Source: Muribaculum gordoncarteri
GTDB lineage: Bacteria > Bacteroidota > Bacteroidia > Bacteroidales > Muribaculaceae
Length of the DNA: 64,000 bases
Direction of reading: 5' to 3'
NCBI RefSeq assembly: GCF_004803695.1
Contig: NZ_CP039393.1
Coordinates: 1,178,001 to 1,242,000 of the forward strand
Made by a program: the position numbers and the translations under genes. The notes beneath the pieces were generated by a model, which ran no database searches, was not told where the DNA came from, and was given only the letters and a program-made list of their open reading frames with translations. Shown here in pieces: positions 23,004-45,605 of the stretch (positions within the stretch are counted from its first letter, which is position 1; every line of letters starts with the position of its first letter).

Positions 23004-23699
23004 TTACAAGCCTAATTTTGATTTTGGCACGGTCGCCTGAAATTCCTTCAGATATTCAGGGGTGGAATAGGCGAGATCAAGGAAGTCGCTGCGCATGAAA
23101 GCCCTGTCGGCTAGAGCCATCATTGATGATGCGAGAGGTTTTACTCCCTTGACAAAGGAGGCATTGGGGTGGTTGATTACATCACGCGCTTTGTCGCTTC
23201 CGTTGCCGAAAAATACCACGGGACCGCGATTTAGATATTCAATATAGCTGTCATTGTCGAGAATCAACGGACGGGGCGACATGAGTGCCTCAAGAGCGTA
23301 GTCGTAGACTGCTGTATAGACCTCCATTCGACGGGCATCGATCATGGGAGCAAACATAACGTTCTCGTCGTAAAATTCACGGAACATGACATCGGCAGTC
23401 AACAGCTGCAAAGTGCTTACGCCGATAAGAGGCAAATCGAGCGCGTAGGCAAGACCTTTGGCTTCGGAAAGACCGATGCGCAATCCCGTATAGCTGCCCG
23501 GACCGATGCTCACGGCAATCGCCTCAAGCTTTATGTCGTTGAACTTTGCCTGGTCGAGAGCGTCCTTTATGAAGCCGCTCAGCATGGTTGCATGATTATG
23601 TCCCGACTCATCGTCACGCTGCATGACAACGAGTCCGTTGTAGGTGAGAGCAACCGAACACACATCGGTTGAAGTTTCAATATTTATTATGGCTGCCAT
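23004..23699 (-). CDS. tsaB: tRNA threonylcarbamoyladenosine biosynthesis protein TsaB, intact copy
   Basis: A 231-residue ASKHA-fold protein, the partner of TsaD in making t6A37 of ANN-decoding tRNAs. Hallmarks are IINIETSTDVCSVAL at the N-terminus and IGPGSYTGLRIGLSEAKGLAYAL. I use the ATG at 23699; a longer open frame to 23831 runs back into the IS and is an artefact. Bases from 23360 upstream belong to a 409-bp perfect duplication made by IS copy 1, so this complete gene has only 69 bases of native upstream sequence before the element. It heads the operon with metF, holB, the nuclease and hemW. Confidence 0.94.
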   Translation of the reverse strand: MAAIINIETSTDVCSVALTYNGLVVMQRDDESGHNHATMLSGFIKDALDQAKFNDIKLEAIAVSIGPGSYTGLRIGLSEAKGLAYALDLPLIGVSTLQLLTADVMFREFYDENVMFAPMIDARRMEVYTAVYDYALEALMSPRPLILDNDSYIEYLNRGPVVFFGNGSDKARDVINHPNASFVKGVKPLASSMMALADRAFMRSDFLDLAYSTPEYLKEFQATVPKSKLGL

Positions 23700-23768
23700 T
23701 GTCTGAAAGAAAAATTTACTTACAAAGGTACGATTTATTCTGCTAATACGGGGATTATTTGTAAATTT
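23360..23768. repeat. Long target-site duplication of IS copy 1, left copy (409 bp)
   Basis: This segment is repeated base for base at 25794-26202. It covers the first 340 bases of tsaB, its start codon, its promoter box and the AT-rich tail up to the IS. Its right end abuts the 3' end of the element (cccatctttt on the plus strand). In my base-by-base reading I found no mismatch between the two copies, implying a recent event. Confidence 0.95.
23723..23730 (-). promoter_or_regulatory. Predicted -7 box of the tsaB-metF-holB operon
   Basis: The minus strand reads TACCTTTG, matching TANNTTTG, 23 bases upstream of the tsaB ATG. The box and 38 further upstream bases lie inside the duplicated block, so the operon promoter survives the insertion. 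An identical box stands at 26157-26164. Confidence 0.6.
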
Positions 23769-23797
23769 CCCATCTTTTACAGTCCAAAAACGAGCAA

Positions 23798-23837
23798 ACC
23801 CTTTTGTACATTGGCGTGAAGCCATGTGCAAAAGGGT
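23798..23837 (-). terminator. Hairpin after the transposase gene, copy 1
   Basis: An inverted repeat with arms ACCCTTTTG and CAAAAGGGT and further inner pairing (ACAT/ATGT, GGC/GCC). It sits 35 bases after the transposase stop and faces the intact tsaB operon. It may end transposase transcripts or block read-through across the element boundary. There is no long T-tract. Confidence 0.55.
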
Positions 23838-23872
23838 CTATATATGTAGCACTGGAATGGGGTTATCTATAT

Positions 23873-25678
23873 TTAACCTTTTTTAATATTAGCAATAATC
23901 TGTTTGATTTTCTGACGAGTAACAATCTCGGTGTCGAGTCTGAAGCCGGCTTTGGCATGTAGGTCATCGGTAAGATCATCCCGTGTGAAGTTAGGCTTGT
24001 AGCCTTCTCCCTTGACTATGTTCATAGTCATTGACCGTAGTTTCTCAATTATAGCGGAGGATGTGTATTTATAGTTCAGTTCCTTTTCCATTATTCTGAA
24101 GAGCAGTAGTGTGATAAAGCAGACAATGAAGTGGGCCCTTATGTGTTCCGCCGTCCAGACGAAGACGGGTCGACCCTTGAAGTCAGTCTTGATGACCCTG
24201 AAGGCATCCTCCGACTCCCAGCGGTTATGGTTCAGTTCGATGATTTTCGTCACATTGTCAGACAGATCCGTACATATCGCATAGAAGCCGTCATATTTTT
24301 CTTCTTCTGATATGGCGTCAAGATTCAGGGAGACGGTTCTGAATACCGCAACCTCGCCGTCTTCTGTGGCGTAGGTCTCGGAAAGGAACCTGTCAGGGCT
24401 CTTATAAGATTTGGTCAATGTCCTGTTTCCACGTGCATTGCTGTCAGCCTTGTCAATCTCGCGTTGACGCAGGAATCGGAGGTAGTCGCGGTATTTGTAT
24501 GAAAATGTCACAATCAATCTTTGAGAGAACTTTGTCTTTTCATTGACAATCCAACGCTCGCGATAAAAAGTGCGGTCTCCGTAATAACGGGCAGTATCGG
24601 CATCAGTCAGGTCAAACTCCAGTTCATCCTCGTCTGCATCCCGGTACCGCTTGTCTTTTTGTACCGTGTCGGACTTTACAAGTTTCCATCCTGTCGGTTC
24701 CAGACACCAGTCCCTGAGATTATCCTCCAGTTTCTTTATTGACTGCACCGTTATGAATGATCTTTCTGCTGTGGAGTTATATGACCGGTTGCCTTCAGAA
24801 GAGAGACCTCCGTCTGTACAGACTACAATCTTGCTGACCCCCATCTTCTCAACTATAATCTTTTCAGTTGGAATCAAGGTAGTCTGTTCGTTGGCATTGC
24901 CGGGATTGATGCACATCGCAACCGGCATGCCGGAGTTGTCGATGAACATACCCATCTGTACGATGGGGTTCGGTCGATGTTCCTTGGAGACTCCGTACTT
25001 GCGTATACGTTCATGAACGTTCCCTTTTTTGTCTGTCACATAGTCCGGATCGGCAGATTCTCTCTCGAAAAAATAGTTGGTGCAGTCATAGTACATGACG
25101 GTCGTATCCCGTTCGACAACCTTTGACGAATTAAGGAAAAGTCTCTTCTGGATGTATTCACCGTGTCTGTCCAGGATATCCAGACTCCTGTAGATATGCT
25201 GTTTTTCTATATCAAAAGGCTCGATATAGCTTCCGCTCCTGCGATAATTACCTAGTTTTGAAGCCGGTCTCAAAAGCCGTTCGTAGACCATCAGCTCCAG
25301 AACTTTGTTGAAATCGAAGTCGAACTTATGTTTACGTGAGATTGCCTCGCATATCCTGTCCATCCCGACCTTATGGTACAGCCGTTTAAGAAACAGATAT
25401 CCGCTCTCGCAACTCTGAGCCTCGCCTTTTTCAATAAGCTTTGTGGGCGACAGACGTGATATTATCACCTGCCGGCCCTCCTTCTCCTGTGCCGTAAGCC
25501 TGGCGATATATTCCCTGGCCCATTCAACAGGATCTCTGTCTCCGCATCTCTGACGAACTTCCTCAAGCGTTCCAAGGCGCTCATGGATTCTTGAGGTACT
25601 TTTGCCGTTCTTGTCCCTGTATGCCTTCTGTACATAAAGGATGGAAGTCTTTTTTGTCTTGGTTATTTTCAGCTTCAT
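23873..25678 (-). CDS. IS1634-family (IS4-like DDE) transposase, copy 1
   Basis: A 601-residue DDE transposase. The DDE triad is visible as MYYDCTNYFFERE (first Asp), IVVCTDGGLSS (second Asp) and HNRWESEDAFRVIKTDF (Glu within a Y/RWxxE-like motif), followed by the family-typical AEHIRAHFIVCFITLLLFR. The N-terminal 60 residues (SRIHERLGTLEEVRQ) are the usual IS1634/IS4 lead-in. The reading frame is intact and identical to copy 2 except Glu56 versus Gly56. It reads in the same direction as tsaB, whose duplicated promoter lies upstream of it. Confidence 0.93.
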   Translation of the reverse strand: MKLKITKTKKTSILYVQKAYRDKNGKSTSRIHERLGTLEEVRQRCGDRDPVEWAREYIARLTAQEKEGRQVIISRLSPTKLIEKGEAQSCESGYLFLKRLYHKVGMDRICEAISRKHKFDFDFNKVLELMVYERLLRPASKLGNYRRSGSYIEPFDIEKQHIYRSLDILDRHGEYIQKRLFLNSSKVVERDTTVMYYDCTNYFFERESADPDYVTDKKGNVHERIRKYGVSKEHRPNPIVQMGMFIDNSGMPVAMCINPGNANEQTTLIPTEKIIVEKMGVSKIVVCTDGGLSSEGNRSYNSTAERSFITVQSIKKLEDNLRDWCLEPTGWKLVKSDTVQKDKRYRDADEDELEFDLTDADTARYYGDRTFYRERWIVNEKTKFSQRLIVTFSYKYRDYLRFLRQREIDKADSNARGNRTLTKSYKSPDRFLSETYATEDGEVAVFRTVSLNLDAISEEEKYDGFYAICTDLSDNVTKIIELNHNRWESEDAFRVIKTDFKGRPVFVWTAEHIRAHFIVCFITLLLFRIMEKELNYKYTSSAIIEKLRSMTMNIVKGEGYKPNFTRDDLTDDLHAKAGFRLDTEIVTRQKIKQIIANIKKG

Positions 25679-25715
25679 ATTATGCCGCCCTGCCGTTGAT
25701 TGCTACACAGTGCTA

Positions 25716-25723
25716 CAAAGATA
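25716..25723 (-). promoter_or_regulatory. Internal transposase promoter -7 box, copy 1
   Basis: The minus strand reads TATCTTTG, with a CTTG about 20 bases further upstream. This is a complete host-type promoter inside the element, 37 bases before the transposase ATG. Confidence 0.6.
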
Positions 25724-25782
25724 GTAATAAAATTTGACACGTGCAAGCGTGCCAGCAAAAAAGATTCATGAAAATGCAACTG

Positions 25783-26133
25783 TCAAACTACCGCGTTCTC
25801 GTCGTAAAATTCACGGAACATGACATCGGCAGTCAACAGCTGCAAAGTGCTTACGCCGATAAGAGGCAAATCGAGCGCGTAGGCAAGACCTTTGGCTTCG
25901 GAAAGACCGATGCGCAATCCCGTATAGCTGCCCGGACCGATGCTCACGGCAATCGCCTCAAGCTTTATGTCGTTGAACTTTGCCTGGTCGAGAGCGTCCT
26001 TTATGAAGCCGCTCAGCATGGTTGCATGATTATGTCCCGACTCATCGTCACGCTGCATGACAACGAGTCCGTTGTAGGTGAGAGCAACCGAACACACATC
26101 GGTTGAAGTTTCAATATTTATTATGGCTGCCAT
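25783..26133 (-). pseudogene. tsaB: 5' fragment of tsaB cut off by IS copy 1
   Basis: The first 113 codons of tsaB are identical to the intact gene up to ...FREFYDEN. The reading frame then enters the IS end and stops after three foreign codons (AVV). The fragment keeps the start codon and promoter. It contains the GPGSYTGLRIG loop but lacks the C-terminal half of the fold, so it is unlikely to be functional. It arises from the target duplication, not from decay of the gene. Confidence 0.93.
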
Positions 26134-26202
26134 TGTCTGAAAGAAAAATTTACTTACAAAGGTACGATTTATTCTGCTAATACGGGGATTATTTGTAAAT
26201 TT
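25794..26202. repeat. Long target-site duplication of IS copy 1, right copy (409 bp)
   Basis: A perfect repeat of 23360-23768 (constant offset of 2,434 bases). Its left end abuts the 5' end of the element. Its right end falls at the last T of a TAAATTTG box that is the predicted yicC promoter. yicC therefore keeps 409 bases of its native upstream sequence. Confidence 0.95.
26157..26164 (-). promoter_or_regulatory. Duplicated tsaB promoter box, now reading into the IS
   Basis: The same TACCTTTG octamer as at 23723-23730. On this side it drives the tsaB fragment and then points into the transposase gene of copy 1, which lies on the same strand about 450 bases downstream. Confidence 0.5.
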
Positions 26203-26203
26203 G
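26196..26203 (+). promoter_or_regulatory. Predicted -7 box for yicC-gmk-nadD
   Basis: TAAATTTG matches TANNTTTG, 18 bases before the yicC ATG. The target duplication of IS copy 1 ends after the seventh base of this octamer. Confidence 0.55.
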
Positions 26204-26221: not shown

Positions 26222-27097
26222 ATGTTATTATCGATGACAGGATTTGGCAAATCGGTTGTCACAATCCCTAACAAGAAAATCACAGTTGAAATCAAGTCGT
26301 TAAACAGCAAGCAGCTGGATATATCAGCGCGAGTTCCGGCAATATTCCGGGAAAAGGAGCTGGAACTGCGCAACCTGATAGCCTCTGTTGTCGAGCGTGG
26401 AAAGGTTGATTTCCAGATATATTCGGAATCAATAGGCGCGGAAACCACCGTGTCATTGAACATTCCTCTTATGGCTGCATACAAGGCTCAGGTCGAAGAG
26501 ATGGCGCGTCAGCTCGGTATACCTTGGCCCGATGACTGGTACGGCGTGCTTTTGCGTTTCCCTGAAACGGTCAAGAGCGAGCTTCCTGCGGCTTTGACCG
26601 ACGAGGAGTCGGAAGCGTTGTTCAACGCAACCCGTGAGGCCATTGACGGACTTATGCAGTTCCGAGCCAAGGAGGGCAAAAAACTTGAAGAGTTCTTTAC
26701 CAAGAAAATCAGCAACATACGCGAGCTGTTGTCATCGGTCGACCCCTACGAAAAAGAGCGTGTCGTGAAGATACGCGCACGCATTGAGGAGAACCTGTCA
26801 AAAATCGATTCCGTGACATTCGACAAGAACCGATTGGAACAAGAGATGATTTTCTATATCGAGAAGCTTGACATAAACGAAGAGAAACAGCGCCTTGCCC
26901 AGCATCTTAATTACTTCATGGAAACGATGGAGCATGGCAACGGTCAAGGAAAGAAACTCGGATTCATCAGTCAGGAGATGGGACGAGAGATAAATACTCT
27001 CGGCTCAAAATCCAATCATGCCGAGCTTCAGAAGATCGTCGTAAAGATGAAGGACGAACTTGAACAGATAAAGGAACAGGTACTTAACGTGATGTAA
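26222..27097 (+). CDS. yicC: YicC family endoribonuclease
   Basis: A 291-residue protein, the usual family length. The N-terminal MLLSMTGFGKSVVTIPNKKI and EIKSLNSKQLDISARVP are diagnostic, as is the C-terminal DUF1732 part with GKKLGFISQEMGREINTLGSK. YicC proteins have been characterised as RNases acting on RNA, including small RNAs, in other bacteria; the target here is unknown. It is followed after 11 bases by gmk, the conserved yicC-gmk pairing. Confidence 0.93.
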   Translation: MLLSMTGFGKSVVTIPNKKITVEIKSLNSKQLDISARVPAIFREKELELRNLIASVVERGKVDFQIYSESIGAETTVSLNIPLMAAYKAQVEEMARQLGIPWPDDWYGVLLRFPETVKSELPAALTDEESEALFNATREAIDGLMQFRAKEGKKLEEFFTKKISNIRELLSSVDPYEKERVVKIRARIEENLSKIDSVTFDKNRLEQEMIFYIEKLDINEEKQRLAQHLNYFMETMEHGNGQGKKLGFISQEMGREINTLGSKSNHAELQKIVVKMKDELEQIKEQVLNVM

Positions 27098-41507: not shown

Positions 41508-41515
41508 CAAAATTA
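41508..41515 (-). promoter_or_regulatory. Predicted -7 box for the NlpC/P60 lipoprotein gene
   Basis: The minus strand reads TAATTTTG, 30 bases before the start codon. The target duplication of IS copy 2 begins at 41510, inside this octamer. Confidence 0.5.
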
Positions 41516-41749
41516 AATATAAAATTCATTTATTACACCATAATTCATATTTTTTAGCTTATGTAAAATGACAGTAAAAAGAGGCATCGTTGTCACATGA
41601 CAGCGATGCCTCGGTATTAACAATGAAAAAATTTTATGCTTTCTTGTAAACGTTTACTTCCGAAGGAGTAAAGTTGTTGATGAATTCGGCGTGCTTTGCA
41701 ACCTCGGCCTTGGCTATGTTATTGTAAACACGGGCCGAAGCGTCAAACT
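41510..41749. repeat. Long target-site duplication of IS copy 2, left copy (240-241 bp)
   Basis: This segment is repeated without mismatch at 43775-44014 (offset 2,265). It contains the promoter-side AT-rich sequence, the terminator of the etf/acyl-CoA dehydrogenase operon and the last codons of the dehydrogenase gene. The base at 41750 is ambiguous between IS and duplication. Confidence 0.95.
41581..41612 (-). terminator. Duplicated operon terminator (left copy)
   Basis: A 14-bp stem with a 4-base loop (GAGGCATCG...CGATGCCTC with inner TGTC/GACA), followed on the minus strand by TTTTT. It is an exact copy of the terminator at 43846-43877. Confidence 0.8.
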
Positions 41750-41750
41750 C
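41634..41750 (-). pseudogene. 3' fragment of the acyl-CoA dehydrogenase gene
   Basis: The last 38 codons and stop of the dehydrogenase are present again here (ending FTPSEVNVYKKA), cut from the rest of the gene by IS copy 2. They were created by the target duplication. The intact gene is at 43899-45605. Confidence 0.9.
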
Positions 41751-41795
41751 GGTAGTTTGACAGTTGCATTTTCATGAATCTTTTTTGCTGGCACG

Positions 41796-41827
41796 CTTGC
41801 ACGTGTCAAATTTTATTACTATCTTTG
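41796..41827 (+). promoter_or_regulatory. Internal transposase promoter, copy 2
   Basis: CTTG at 41796-41799 and TATCTTTG at 41820-41827 with 20 bases between them. A transcript would start near 41833, 32 bases before the transposase ATG. The element therefore carries its own host-compatible promoter. Confidence 0.65.
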
Positions 41828-41864
41828 TAGCACCGTGTAGCAATCAACGGCAGGGCGGCATAAT

Positions 41865-43670
41865 ATGAAGCTGAAAATAACCAAGACAAAAAAGACTTCC
41901 ATCCTTTATGTACAGAAGGCATACAGGGACAAGAACGGCAAAAGTACCTCAAGAATCCATGAGCGCCTTGGAACGCTTGAGGAAGTTCGTCAGAGATGCG
42001 GAGACAGAGATCCTGTTGAATGGGCCAGGGGATATATCGCCAGGCTTACGGCACAGGAGAAGGAGGGCCGGCAGGTGATAATATCACGTCTGTCGCCCAC
42101 AAAGCTTATTGAAAAAGGCGAGGCTCAGAGTTGCGAGAGCGGATATCTGTTTCTTAAACGGCTGTACCATAAGGTCGGGATGGACAGGATATGCGAGGCA
42201 ATCTCACGTAAACATAAGTTCGACTTCGATTTCAACAAAGTTCTGGAGCTGATGGTCTACGAACGGCTTTTGAGACCGGCTTCAAAACTAGGTAATTATC
42301 GCAGGAGCGGAAGCTATATCGAGCCTTTTGATATAGAAAAACAGCATATCTACAGGAGTCTGGATATCCTGGACAGACACGGTGAATACATCCAGAAGAG
42401 ACTTTTCCTTAATTCGTCAAAGGTTGTCGAACGGGATACGACCGTCATGTACTATGACTGCACCAACTATTTTTTCGAGAGAGAATCTGCCGATCCGGAC
42501 TATGTGACAGACAAAAAAGGGAACGTTCATGAACGTATACGCAAGTACGGAGTCTCCAAGGAACATCGACCGAACCCCATCGTACAGATGGGTATGTTCA
42601 TCGACAACTCCGGCATGCCGGTTGCGATGTGCATCAATCCCGGCAATGCCAACGAACAGACTACCTTGATTCCAACTGAAAAGATTATAGTTGAGAAGAT
42701 GGGGGTCAGCAAGATTGTAGTCTGTACAGACGGAGGTCTCTCTTCTGAAGGCAACCGGTCATATAACTCCACAGCAGAAAGATCATTCATAACGGTGCAG
42801 TCAATAAAGAAACTGGAGGATAATCTCAGGGACTGGTGTCTGGAACCGACAGGATGGAAACTTGTAAAGTCCGACACGGTACAAAAAGACAAGCGGTACC
42901 GGGATGCAGACGAGGATGAACTGGAGTTTGACCTGACTGATGCCGATACTGCCCGTTATTACGGAGACCGCACTTTTTATCGCGAGCGTTGGATTGTCAA
43001 TGAAAAGACAAAGTTCTCTCAAAGATTGATTGTGACATTTTCATACAAATACCGCGACTACCTCCGATTCCTGCGTCAACGCGAGATTGACAAGGCTGAC
43101 AGCAATGCACGTGGAAACAGGACATTGACCAAATCTTATAAGAGCCCTGACAGGTTCCTTTCCGAGACCTACGCCACAGAAGACGGCGAGGTTGCGGTAT
43201 TCAGAACCGTCTCCCTGAATCTTGACGCCATATCAGAAGAAGAAAAATATGACGGCTTCTATGCGATATGTACGGATCTGTCTGACAATGTGACGAAAAT
43301 CATCGAACTGAACCATAACCGCTGGGAGTCGGAGGATGCCTTCAGGGTCATCAAGACTGACTTCAAGGGTCGACCCGTCTTCGTCTGGACGGCGGAACAC
43401 ATAAGGGCCCACTTCATTGTCTGCTTTATCACACTACTGCTCTTCAGAATAATGGAAAAGGAACTGAACTATAAATACACATCCTCCGCTATAATTGAGA
43501 AACTACGGTCAATGACTATGAACATAGTCAAGGGAGAAGGCTACAAGCCTAACTTCACACGGGATGATCTTACCGATGACCTACATGCCAAAGCCGGCTT
43601 CAGACTCGACACCGAGATTGTTACTCGTCAGAAAATCAAACAGATTATTGCTAATATTAAAAAAGGTTAA
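41865..43670 (+). CDS. IS1634-family (IS4-like DDE) transposase, copy 2
   Basis: A 601-residue DDE transposase with Asp in YYDCTNYFFE, Asp in VVCTDGGLSS and Glu in RWESEDAFRVIK, and the IRAHFIVCFITLLLF signature of the IS1634 branch. It is identical to copy 1 except for Gly56 in place of Glu56 (WARG versus WARE). Both frames are complete, so both copies may be active. Upstream lies the internal promoter and downstream a hairpin. Confidence 0.93.
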   Translation: MKLKITKTKKTSILYVQKAYRDKNGKSTSRIHERLGTLEEVRQRCGDRDPVEWARGYIARLTAQEKEGRQVIISRLSPTKLIEKGEAQSCESGYLFLKRLYHKVGMDRICEAISRKHKFDFDFNKVLELMVYERLLRPASKLGNYRRSGSYIEPFDIEKQHIYRSLDILDRHGEYIQKRLFLNSSKVVERDTTVMYYDCTNYFFERESADPDYVTDKKGNVHERIRKYGVSKEHRPNPIVQMGMFIDNSGMPVAMCINPGNANEQTTLIPTEKIIVEKMGVSKIVVCTDGGLSSEGNRSYNSTAERSFITVQSIKKLEDNLRDWCLEPTGWKLVKSDTVQKDKRYRDADEDELEFDLTDADTARYYGDRTFYRERWIVNEKTKFSQRLIVTFSYKYRDYLRFLRQREIDKADSNARGNRTLTKSYKSPDRFLSETYATEDGEVAVFRTVSLNLDAISEEEKYDGFYAICTDLSDNVTKIIELNHNRWESEDAFRVIKTDFKGRPVFVWTAEHIRAHFIVCFITLLLFRIMEKELNYKYTSSAIIEKLRSMTMNIVKGEGYKPNFTRDDLTDDLHAKAGFRLDTEIVTRQKIKQIIANIKKG

Positions 43671-43705
43671 ATATAGATAACCCCATTCCAGTGCTACATA
43701 TATAG

Positions 43706-43745
43706 ACCCTTTTGCACATGGCTTCACGCCAATGTACAAAAGGGT
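43706..43745 (+). terminator. Hairpin after the transposase gene, copy 2
   Basis: The same ACCCTTTTG...CAAAAGGGT hairpin as in copy 1, 36 bases after the transposase stop and about 30 bases from the element end. Confidence 0.55.
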
Positions 43746-43774
43746 TTGCTCGTTTTTGGACTGTAAAAGATGGG

Positions 43775-44014
43775 AAATTAAATATAAAATTCATTTATTA
43801 CACCATAATTCATATTTTTTAGCTTATGTAAAATGACAGTAAAAAGAGGCATCGTTGTCACATGACAGCGATGCCTCGGTATTAACAATGAAAAAATTTT
43901 ATGCTTTCTTGTAAACGTTTACTTCCGAAGGAGTAAAGTTGTTGATGAATTCGGCGTGCTTTGCAACCTCGGCCTTGGCTATGTTATTGTAAACACGGGC
44001 CGAAGCGTCAAACT
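43775..44014. repeat. Long target-site duplication of IS copy 2, right copy (240-241 bp)
   Basis: A perfect repeat of 41510-41749. On this side it is continuous with the intact acyl-CoA dehydrogenase gene and its terminator. Its left end (AAATTAAATA) abuts the GATGGG end of the element. Confidence 0.95.
43846..43877 (-). terminator. Terminator of the etf/acyl-CoA dehydrogenase operon
   Basis: A 14-bp stem with one wobble pair and a 4-base loop, followed by five T on the minus strand, starting about 20 bases after the dehydrogenase stop. Confidence 0.85.
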
Positions 44015-45605
44015 CTTCGTTGCGGCTTGCATCGAGGATGAGCAGATAGCTCATGATGATGTTGCCTGCCATCTCGACAAGGCGACGGGCCATGAAGTCA
44101 AGATATTCCGAATCCTTTGCCGATGTAACTTTCTCAACTGCGGCGGCATATATGTCGGTAAGCTTAACAAGCTCGTCCTTCAACGGCAGATAAGCTTCGG
44201 CAATGTTCTCGTTCTCATAAGCGCGTATCTGGTTCAGATAGGTGCCTGTGGTCACGTGGCGTATGGCTGCCACAACCTGGAGCTGTGTAGTACCTTCGTA
44301 GATTGAGGTTATGCGTGCGTCACGATAGATGCGCTCGCAAGCGTAGTCCTTCATGAAGCCTGAACCGCCGTGTACCTGTACTGAATCGTAAGCGTTCTGG
44401 TTGCTGTATTCGCTGCCCATGCCCTTGGCCATGGGAGTGAAGGCATCGGCAAGACGTGAATACTTCTTCATCTCGGCGCGTTCGTCGGGAGTCAGTGAGC
44501 GTTCACGTGCTATGTCCTCGTAGGTCTTGTACATGTCGACAAAACGAGTGGTTTCATAGAGCAGCGAGCGTGATGCATCGAGCTTGGCCTTCATTACTGA
44601 AAGCATCTCGTAAACAGCGGGGAACTCGATAATTGCCTTTCCAAACTGACGGCGGTCACGTGCATAGTCAAGAGCTTCACGGTAAGCAGCTTCCGATACA
44701 CCTACCGACTGAGCTGCGATTCCGAGGCGGGCACCGTTCATGAGGGCCATCACATACTTGATAAGACCGAGCTTACGTGAACCGCAAAGTTCAGCCTTTG
44801 CATTCTTGAAAACGAGCTCGCATGTGGGTGAACCCTTGATCCCCATTTTATTTTCGATGCGGCGAACTGTTACGCCTCCGTCATTCTTGTCGTAAATGAA
44901 CATCGACAATCCGCGACCGTCCTTTGTGCCTTCCTCGCTACGTGCGAGTACAAGTGCTATGTCACCGTCGCCGTTGGTGATGAAGCGCTTCACGCCGTTA
45001 AGACGCCAGCAGCCGTTCTCCTCATCGGGAGTAGCCTTGAGCATAACGGCCTGAAGGTCGCTACCTGCATCGGGCTCGGTAAGGTCCATAGCCATGGTTT
45101 CGCCTGCGCACACGCGGGGAAGATAACGCTTACGCTGATCCTCATCGGCAAATTCATAGATTGTTTCGGCACAGTCCTGCAGACCCCAGATGTTGACAAA
45201 TCCGGCATCGGCACGACTAACCATGTCGGCTGCCATGATGTAGGGTACAAGCGAGAAGTTAAGACCGTTGTAGCGGCGGGGCAGTGAGATGCCCATAAGG
45301 CCTGCCTTTACAAGAGCGTCGAGATTCTTCTGAGTACCTTCGGCATATACAACTCGACCGTTTACTACGTGAGGGCCTTCGTGGTCTACGCTTTCAGCGT
45401 TGGGTGCTACGATGTCACCACTTATTTCACCGGCGATTTCAAGGACCTTTTCATAGGAGTCCATGGCATCGTCATAGTTGAAAGGAGCGTAGTCGTACTT
45501 CTCGGCGTCGGTATAGTTACGCTCTTTCAATTTGATAATCTTACGCATCAACGGATGAGTCAGATGATGCTTAAGACTGGGATTGTCGTTATAAAAATTA
45601 GCCAT
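43899..45605 (-). CDS. Acyl-CoA dehydrogenase, intact copy
   Basis: A 568-residue flavoprotein dehydrogenase. It shows MAMDLTEPDAGSDLQAV (FAD and substrate binding), RFITNGDGDIALVLA, MGIKGSPTCELVF and the C-terminal VHGGSGFMKDYACERIYRDA followed by SIYEGTTQLQ. It is longer than the roughly 380 residues of short-chain enzymes, having an extra C-terminal helical domain. It passes electrons to the EtfAB pair encoded in the same operon. The substrate is not evident. Its last 38 codons are duplicated beyond IS copy 2. Confidence 0.92.
   Translation of the reverse strand: MANFYNDNPSLKHHLTHPLMRKIIKLKERNYTDAEKYDYAPFNYDDAMDSYEKVLEIAGEISGDIVAPNAESVDHEGPHVVNGRVVYAEGTQKNLDALVKAGLMGISLPRRYNGLNFSLVPYIMAADMVSRADAGFVNIWGLQDCAETIYEFADEDQRKRYLPRVCAGETMAMDLTEPDAGSDLQAVMLKATPDEENGCWRLNGVKRFITNGDGDIALVLARSEEGTKDGRGLSMFIYDKNDGGVTVRRIENKMGIKGSPTCELVFKNAKAELCGSRKLGLIKYVMALMNGARLGIAAQSVGVSEAAYREALDYARDRRQFGKAIIEFPAVYEMLSVMKAKLDASRSLLYETTRFVDMYKTYEDIARERSLTPDERAEMKKYSRLADAFTPMAKGMGSEYSNQNAYDSVQVHGGSGFMKDYACERIYRDARITSIYEGTTQLQVVAAIRHVTTGTYLNQIRAYENENIAEAYLPLKDELVKLTDIYAAAVEKVTSAKDSEYLDFMARRLVEMAGNIIMSYLLILDASRNEEFDASARVYNNIAKAEVAKHAEFINNFTPSEVNVYKKA

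Follow-up and report, generated by a model that had tools for sequence, protein, structure and literature searches.

Long, variable target duplications flank an IS1634-family insertion sequence in Muribaculum gordoncarteri, one end of which appears to join promoter-like sites

How an insertion sequence (IS) comes to lie between two perfect copies of several hundred bases of its target is the question raised by a locus of the lineage Muribaculaceae. In the window analysed here, a 64,000-bp stretch of the Muribaculum gordoncarteri genome (assembly GCF_004803695.1, contig NZ_CP039393.1, positions 1,178,001 to 1,242,000), bases 23360-23768 and 25794-26202 are identical at 409 of 409 positions, the identity ends abruptly at both sides, and the interval between them (23769-25793) is exactly one IS of 2025 bp, referred to below as copy 1. 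The original prediction, made from the letters of this locus, had described the perfect repeat abutting a 2,025-bp IS1634-type element and had proposed either strand cuts hundreds of bases apart or a repair-based insertion. The repeat and the family assignment are confirmed, and comparison with other copies suggests an asymmetry between the two target sites that the original prediction had missed, namely promoter-like sequence at one IS end.

The M. gordoncarteri genome (3.43 Mb, 3 contigs) contains 19 full-length and 2 partial matches to this IS. One full copy (L019) was excluded as redundant, since the contig start that contains it is chimeric and duplicated; perfect repeats flank all 18 of the 18 distinct copies that remain, with lengths of 58, 90, 106, 124, 128, 199, 204, 219, 240, 272, 388, 396, 398, 408, 409, 489, 509 and 511 bp. 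The copies elsewhere in the genome, proposed earlier as a check for uniform short duplications, thus show none of that kind, and the idea of a long, variable duplication with joints hundreds of bases apart holds across the set. Chance cannot be the source of these repeats. With no more than 2 differences between copy 1 and any other full copy, the spread looks recent. Two of them, L003 and L010 (contig C1, 2166997-2171555), share an identical base at the right-end target site and differ at the left-end site, so that their 272- and 509-bp repeats are nested. At L008 (contig C1, 592240-595254, with L020), a 106-bp repeat encloses a partial IS (bases 1-990) together with a full one, which could reflect a second insertion reusing the same right-end site, followed by recombination. 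An empty target for copy 1 was rebuilt by joining its two flanks through a single repeat; of nine loci fetched from congeners, six were collinear with it through the repeat at 69-71% identity, thereby supplying the single-copy target that the original prediction had suggested looking for; the remaining three alignments stop short of the repeat, and those for the target of a second copy in the window (copy 2) cover part of its repeat only.

Related elements were sought by scanning a single genome for each species. This returned 73 matches, many of which lie in Lachnospiraceae (35-44% identity), and more copies were drawn from 16 whole genomes behind such matches, from 40 of 397 genomes in the family to which one match belongs, and from fetched stretches. 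A copy was counted as complete, here and in the hold-out set described below, only if at least 84% of the transposase and at least 400 bp on each side were present. Among 77 non-redundant complete copies, 49 carry an exact repeat of at least 20 bp and 28 carry none. Removal of L149 (Ns) and of one L195 entry (tandem array, 1568) left 47 sites for analysis, with the irregular sites L109, L121, L118, L141, L192 and L195 retained; their repeats span 35-807 bp (median 97, or 120 when pooled with the 18 from M. gordoncarteri). Distant homologues among the 77 include both kinds: L031, L151 and L194 (26-31% identity) all lack a long repeat, and L191-L193, L195 and L196 (27-28% identity) carry repeats. 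In a tree of 15 transposases, long-repeat elements occur in both deep branches.

To compare sites, each empty target was written in transposase orientation as left flank, site X, duplicated stretch, site Y and right flank, X being the site that receives the right IS end and Y the one that receives the left. Outside M. gordoncarteri, ATTATA (at most 1 mismatch, within 1 base) is found at X in 31 of 47 sites, as compared to 3.8% of positions (p = 6e-33). Since this hexamer is the -10 promoter box TATAAT in reverse complement, the promoter would read leftward, with the duplicated stretch upstream of it. A reverse -35 box, TGTCAA, with at most 2 mismatches and a 16-18 bp spacing, accompanies 15 of 30 such ATTATA sites versus 269 of 1566 intergenic ATTATA controls (17%; p = 5e-5; an earlier count gave 14/24 versus 15.5%), and a leftward gene start accompanies 26 of the 30 versus 827 of the 1566 (p = 1e-4). 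At other right junctions, comprising those with no repeat found, cut flanks, or fragments, ATTATA directly follows the IS end in 29 of 48 (of these 48, eight are fragments), after removal of one overlap with the 47.

Promoters of Bacteroidetes have a -7 box, TAnnTTTG. In M. gordoncarteri, its reverse complement CAAAnnTA starts between -13 and +2 relative to X at 13 of 17 sites, as compared to 2.2% (same strand) and 3.5% (opposite strand) of intergenic positions, and it is found on the opposite strand at X in 0 of 17; L010 was left out of the tests on X, its left flank being another IS copy. For the first set of relatives and M. gordoncarteri together, a leftward open reading frame (ORF) of at least 75 codons begins no more than 300 bp left of X at 58 of the 64 sites (median distance 53 bp), and a gene start near X lies on the left only in 28 cases versus on the right only in 3. 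Taken together, these patterns suggest that the site joined by the right IS end resembles a core promoter in a single orientation.

This rule was fixed before it was applied to a hold-out set of 47 loci, taken from 391 genomes drawn at class level and from more stretches of these genomes, with no X site in common with the first set. Among 23 complete non-redundant copies, 17 have a repeat of at least 20 bp (30-271 bp). ATTATA is present at X in 13 of these 17, and a -35 box in 9 of the 13; for the six copies that lack a repeat, the motif is present at all five readable right junctions. The repeats and both promoter boxes were therefore replicated in the hold-out set; the gene-start criterion was not.

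The opposite target site, Y, is weakly specific and lies mostly 30-800 bp upstream of the promoter at X. The base that follows the cut on the right is C at 29 of 47 sites (p = 2e-10), and in M. gordoncarteri position Y-2 is a pyrimidine in 18 of 18. Y falls within an ORF of at least 80 codons at 39 of 64 sites, and in 31 of these 39 (12 of 12 in M. gordoncarteri) the ORF that crosses Y lies entirely right of X and is hence intact, versus 58% expected from random repeat lengths (p = 0.004). An arrangement that places X at a promoter and Y farther upstream may therefore keep the harm of insertion low. No helical phasing of duplication length at 10.5 bp was detected across 65 lengths (p = 0.58; p = 0.09 for the 18 of M. 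gordoncarteri alone), which argues against a tightly looped target; a maximum at 11.3 in the phasing scan of that genome is not claimed as a signal.

The account that these observations would fit, and that seems reasonably likely, is one of two separate strand transfers, the right one anchored at a promoter, with the intervening stretch copied by displacement synthesis. The transposase would transfer its two ends to opposite target strands at points far apart. The joint of the right end would fall at a core promoter or next to it (at the -10 box in Bacillota, in the vicinity of the -7 box in M. gordoncarteri) and on the would-be template strand, with transcription directed away from the duplicated DNA. 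The left end would join the other strand at Y, and host strand-displacement synthesis from the exposed 3′ ends through the X-Y interval would leave one copy on each side of the IS. Since the IS ends are exact in the M. gordoncarteri copies and each target site has a base preference, both joints look like transposase strand transfers, and because that genome shows duplications only, the two transfers seem to have a fixed polarity. We infer which strands would be attacked, that the right end would precede the left one, that it would be helped by an open promoter or by RNA polymerase, and that synthesis from X would separate the strands before the left joint is made.

Several observations weigh against this account. 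Repeats are lacking in 28 of the 77 complete copies and in 6 of the 23 hold-out copies, and no short repeat (at least 4 bp) was found in the 28 at ends that could be placed, the right end not having been found in 6 of them. One case, L138/L156 (Catonella), suggests a probable exchange of flanks between copies, and the others could include deletions. For the promoter itself, perfect or one-mismatch -35 boxes alone number 2 of 24, which is not significant (p = 0.14); 16 of 47 sites also have a TATAAT-like sequence (at most 1 mismatch) across X, the two hexamers being alike when shifted; and the Bacteroidetes -33 box, at 5 of 13 versus 6 of 39, is likewise not significant (p = 0.09). A leftward gene start in the hold-out set, at 9 of 17 versus 53% of intergenic controls (p = 0.59), did not replicate the support that gene starts gave in the first set. 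Furthermore, transfer order, strand displacement and any role of RNA polymerase enter by inference, and the insertions observed are survivors of selection only.

Much of the same evidence bears on whether RNA polymerase has any part in target choice. The two-cut, long-stagger chemistry could be retained with targeting by sequence only, in which case an AT-rich strand motif would be preferred and promoters would be hit for containing it. This is a substantial possibility, if somewhat short of an even one: the bases at X resemble one fixed motif per host group, short-duplication members of the IS1634 family use AT-rich tracts of 5-6 bp according to the available part of PMC2266710, and the gene-start criterion failed in the hold-out set. 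Such targeting does not readily explain why the -35 box is correctly spaced at half of the ATTATA sites of the first set and again at most of those in the hold-out set, nor why, in M. gordoncarteri, the association with CAAAnnTA persists while its offset from X varies (start -12 to -1). Thus, between opening by RNA polymerase and the reading of sequence alone, the -35 enrichment favours the polymerase and the failed gene-start criterion favours sequence.

Other explanations address the origin of the duplication itself. Insertion near a replication fork or into sister chromatids, with the IS ends joining the two daughter arms at points whose distance sets the duplication length, would be in keeping with a transposase co-directional with the estimated fork at 13 of 18 sites (hand count; GC skew). 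That count has a p value of 0.10, origin and terminus were placed roughly (20 GC-skew samples) with two sites near the terminus, and free choice between sisters should yield deletions as well, whereas 18 of 18 are duplications; an origin at forks is accordingly considered unlikely. The repair-based insertion put forward in the original prediction, in which the transposase would join the right end and end joining or break repair would capture the left end later, accounts for variable length and for the weak specificity of Y. It has become the less likely of the two early proposals, and is judged very improbable, in view of a left IS end that is base-precise in the M. gordoncarteri copies (L008 being composite), as the right end is, and of the base preference that each junction, Y included, has of its own. 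Finally, an assembly error or an older tandem duplication of the target could be suspected from the start of contig C1 (1-27800), which is chimeric at one IS copy: its first ~15 kb repeat 580.2-595.3 kb, the remainder repeats the contig end, and the junction lies at the IS, the whole probably being an untrimmed or misjoined circular contig. With 18 resolved repeats, a single-copy target at six of nine congeneric loci and the same pattern in unrelated assemblies, the repeats are not an assembly fault of one locus, and an artefact has a negligible probability. Two separate transfers, with the right one at a promoter, remain the preferred account.

The element of the window is an IS1634-family member of the long-duplication kind, like IS1549 and IS1634. 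The copy 1 transposase matches NF033559 (IS1634 family) at 316 bits against a cut-off of 100, its residues D198, D289 and E490 are invariant across 15 transposase rows, as expected of the DDE triad of the family, and its YREK motif is incomplete, as is also characteristic, with R486, E490 and K497 present and N at residue 483. Retention of the R is unusual for the family, being reported for just 5 of 32 members in the available part of the 2008 family review (PMC2266710). Both termini (CGGTAGTTT and CCCATCTTT) conform to the family end rule C-----YT, which also describes both ends of 41 of the 47 other elements when a boundary shift of up to 3 bases is permitted. At 2025 bp, the element is slightly above the ~1500-2000 bp given for the family in the same source. 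Duplications in the family are generally 5-6 bp, in contrast to the 58-511 bp of the 18 M. gordoncarteri copies; the exceptions named there are IS1549 (Mycobacterium smegmatis) and IS1634 (Mycoplasma mycoides), at 8-514 bp, in agreement with the precedents cited in the original prediction. As in those elements, the repeats in M. gordoncarteri, its relatives and the hold-out set are exact, long and variable; the phyla involved differ, and the part of PMC2266710 at hand does not mention an anchoring of one end at promoters for IS1549 or IS1634. ISGka5 and ISPfe2 belong to the same family and have 6-bp duplications (PMC8024623 and PMC3281130, as excerpted), as compared to tens to hundreds of bp here. 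The IS4 family, such as the IS10 and IS50 subgroups, has DDE chemistry in common with this element, which retains the R(3)E(6)K spacing, and differs in its 7-13 bp duplications and complete YREK motif (PMC2266710, in part).

Individual relatives add detail. A copy in Muribaculaceae bacterium Isolate-036 is 99.8-99.9% identical, is interrupted, and has an 80-bp repeat; the interruption spans ~9.6 kb and includes frames that look, by eye, like those of a recombinase and a relaxase. Relatives were absent from viral contigs and from phages and present in 3 plasmid records. A plasmid copy from Ligilactobacillus salivarius has a 14-bp repeat starting with ATTATA, inside the 8-514 bp range given in the consulted part of PMC2266710. 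In a Carnobacterium plasmid, X carries AATATA-17-TGTCAA and a PTS IIA gene starts 55 bp away; the left copy of the ~309-bp repeat there seems to hold an insert of ~115 bp with a 10-bp duplication. A Lachnoanaerobaculum genome contains a tandem array of the form repeat-IS-repeat-IS-repeat, with a repeat of 1532 bp, and a 3615-bp contig of the same genome holds one such IS; together they represent perhaps an amplification or a circle. Within Bacteroidales, further searching gave weak homologues only, in 12 of 98 relatives, and a further 392 genomes of the order yielded none at E 1e-60; no long repeat was found at 12 examined of 26 loci with distant homologues, several of them fragments or short-flanked. 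Literature searches returned no Bacteroidales case of a long duplication, which is no proof of absence, and nothing on promoter choice by the IS1634 family, with limited coverage of subscription papers; PMC3053259, in the part available, is silent on target choice.

The two copies in the window illustrate how neighbouring genes are spared (Table 1). At copy 1, X lies between 26202 and 26203, and the left IS end joined within a 231-aa PF00814 gene (23004-23699), which we take to be tsaB, a gene that is usually essential. It is intact because the repeat carries its 5′ part and a promoter-like box, and the yicC-like gene on the other side retains its own promoter-like box. At copy 2, where bases 41510-41749 perfectly match 43775-44014, X lies 32 bp from the start of an NlpC/P60 gene (40818-41477, minus strand), and the acyl-CoA dehydrogenase-like gene is intact because the right repeat copy restores it.

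Table 1. Coordinates of the two IS copies, their repeats and adjacent features in the window
Feature	Position	Strand	Remarks
tsaB-like gene, 231 aa, PF00814	23004..23699	-	intact owing to the duplication
Direct repeat copy beside tsaB-like gene	23360..23768		includes 5′ part of the gene and promoter-like box CAAAGGTA at 23723
IS1634-family insertion sequence, copy 1	23769..25793	-	2025 bp; ends CGGTAGTTT... and CCCATCTTT...
Transposase of copy 1	23873..25678	-	601 aa, IS1634 family; D198, D289, E490
Second, truncated copy of 5′ end of tsaB-like gene	25783..26133	-	reads into IS left end
Direct repeat copy beside yicC-like gene	25794..26202
TAAATTTG, ahead of yicC	26196..26203	+	fits Bacteroidetes -7 promoter box TAnnTTTG
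yicC-like gene	26222..27097	+	intact; on promoter side of copy 1 target
CAAAATTA (plus strand), reverse complement of TAnnTTTG	41508..41515	-	at copy 2 site X (41509/41510)
Left direct repeat of copy 2	41510..41749		240 bp
IS copy 2	41750..43774	+	2025 bp; 2 substitutions relative to copy 1
Transposase of copy 2	41865..43670	+
Right direct repeat of copy 2	43775..44014		240 bp
Acyl-CoA dehydrogenase-like gene	43899..45605	-	IS left end joined within its 3′ part

While long variable repeats were already known, the asymmetry of the two target sites is apparently new. The available part of the 2008 family review (PMC2266710) proposes no mechanism for the long repeats of IS1549 and IS1634, leaving the origin of duplications of hundreds of bp by DDE transposases without a model; one promoter-anchored joint and one free joint make this puzzle testable at the bench. 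A tentative and rather doubtful extension is that transcription initiation guides transposition: the right end would attack the template strand where it is melted within an open complex of RNA polymerase, the freed 3′ end would be extended upstream by displacement, and the left end would close on the other strand. If so, the long duplication would be a read-out of synthesis between uncoupled strand transfers, and insertion beside important genes would be nearly harmless, as well as reversible through recombination of the repeats. Flanking repeats could also permit exact loss of the IS or its amplification, the latter being suggested by the 1532-bp tandem array.

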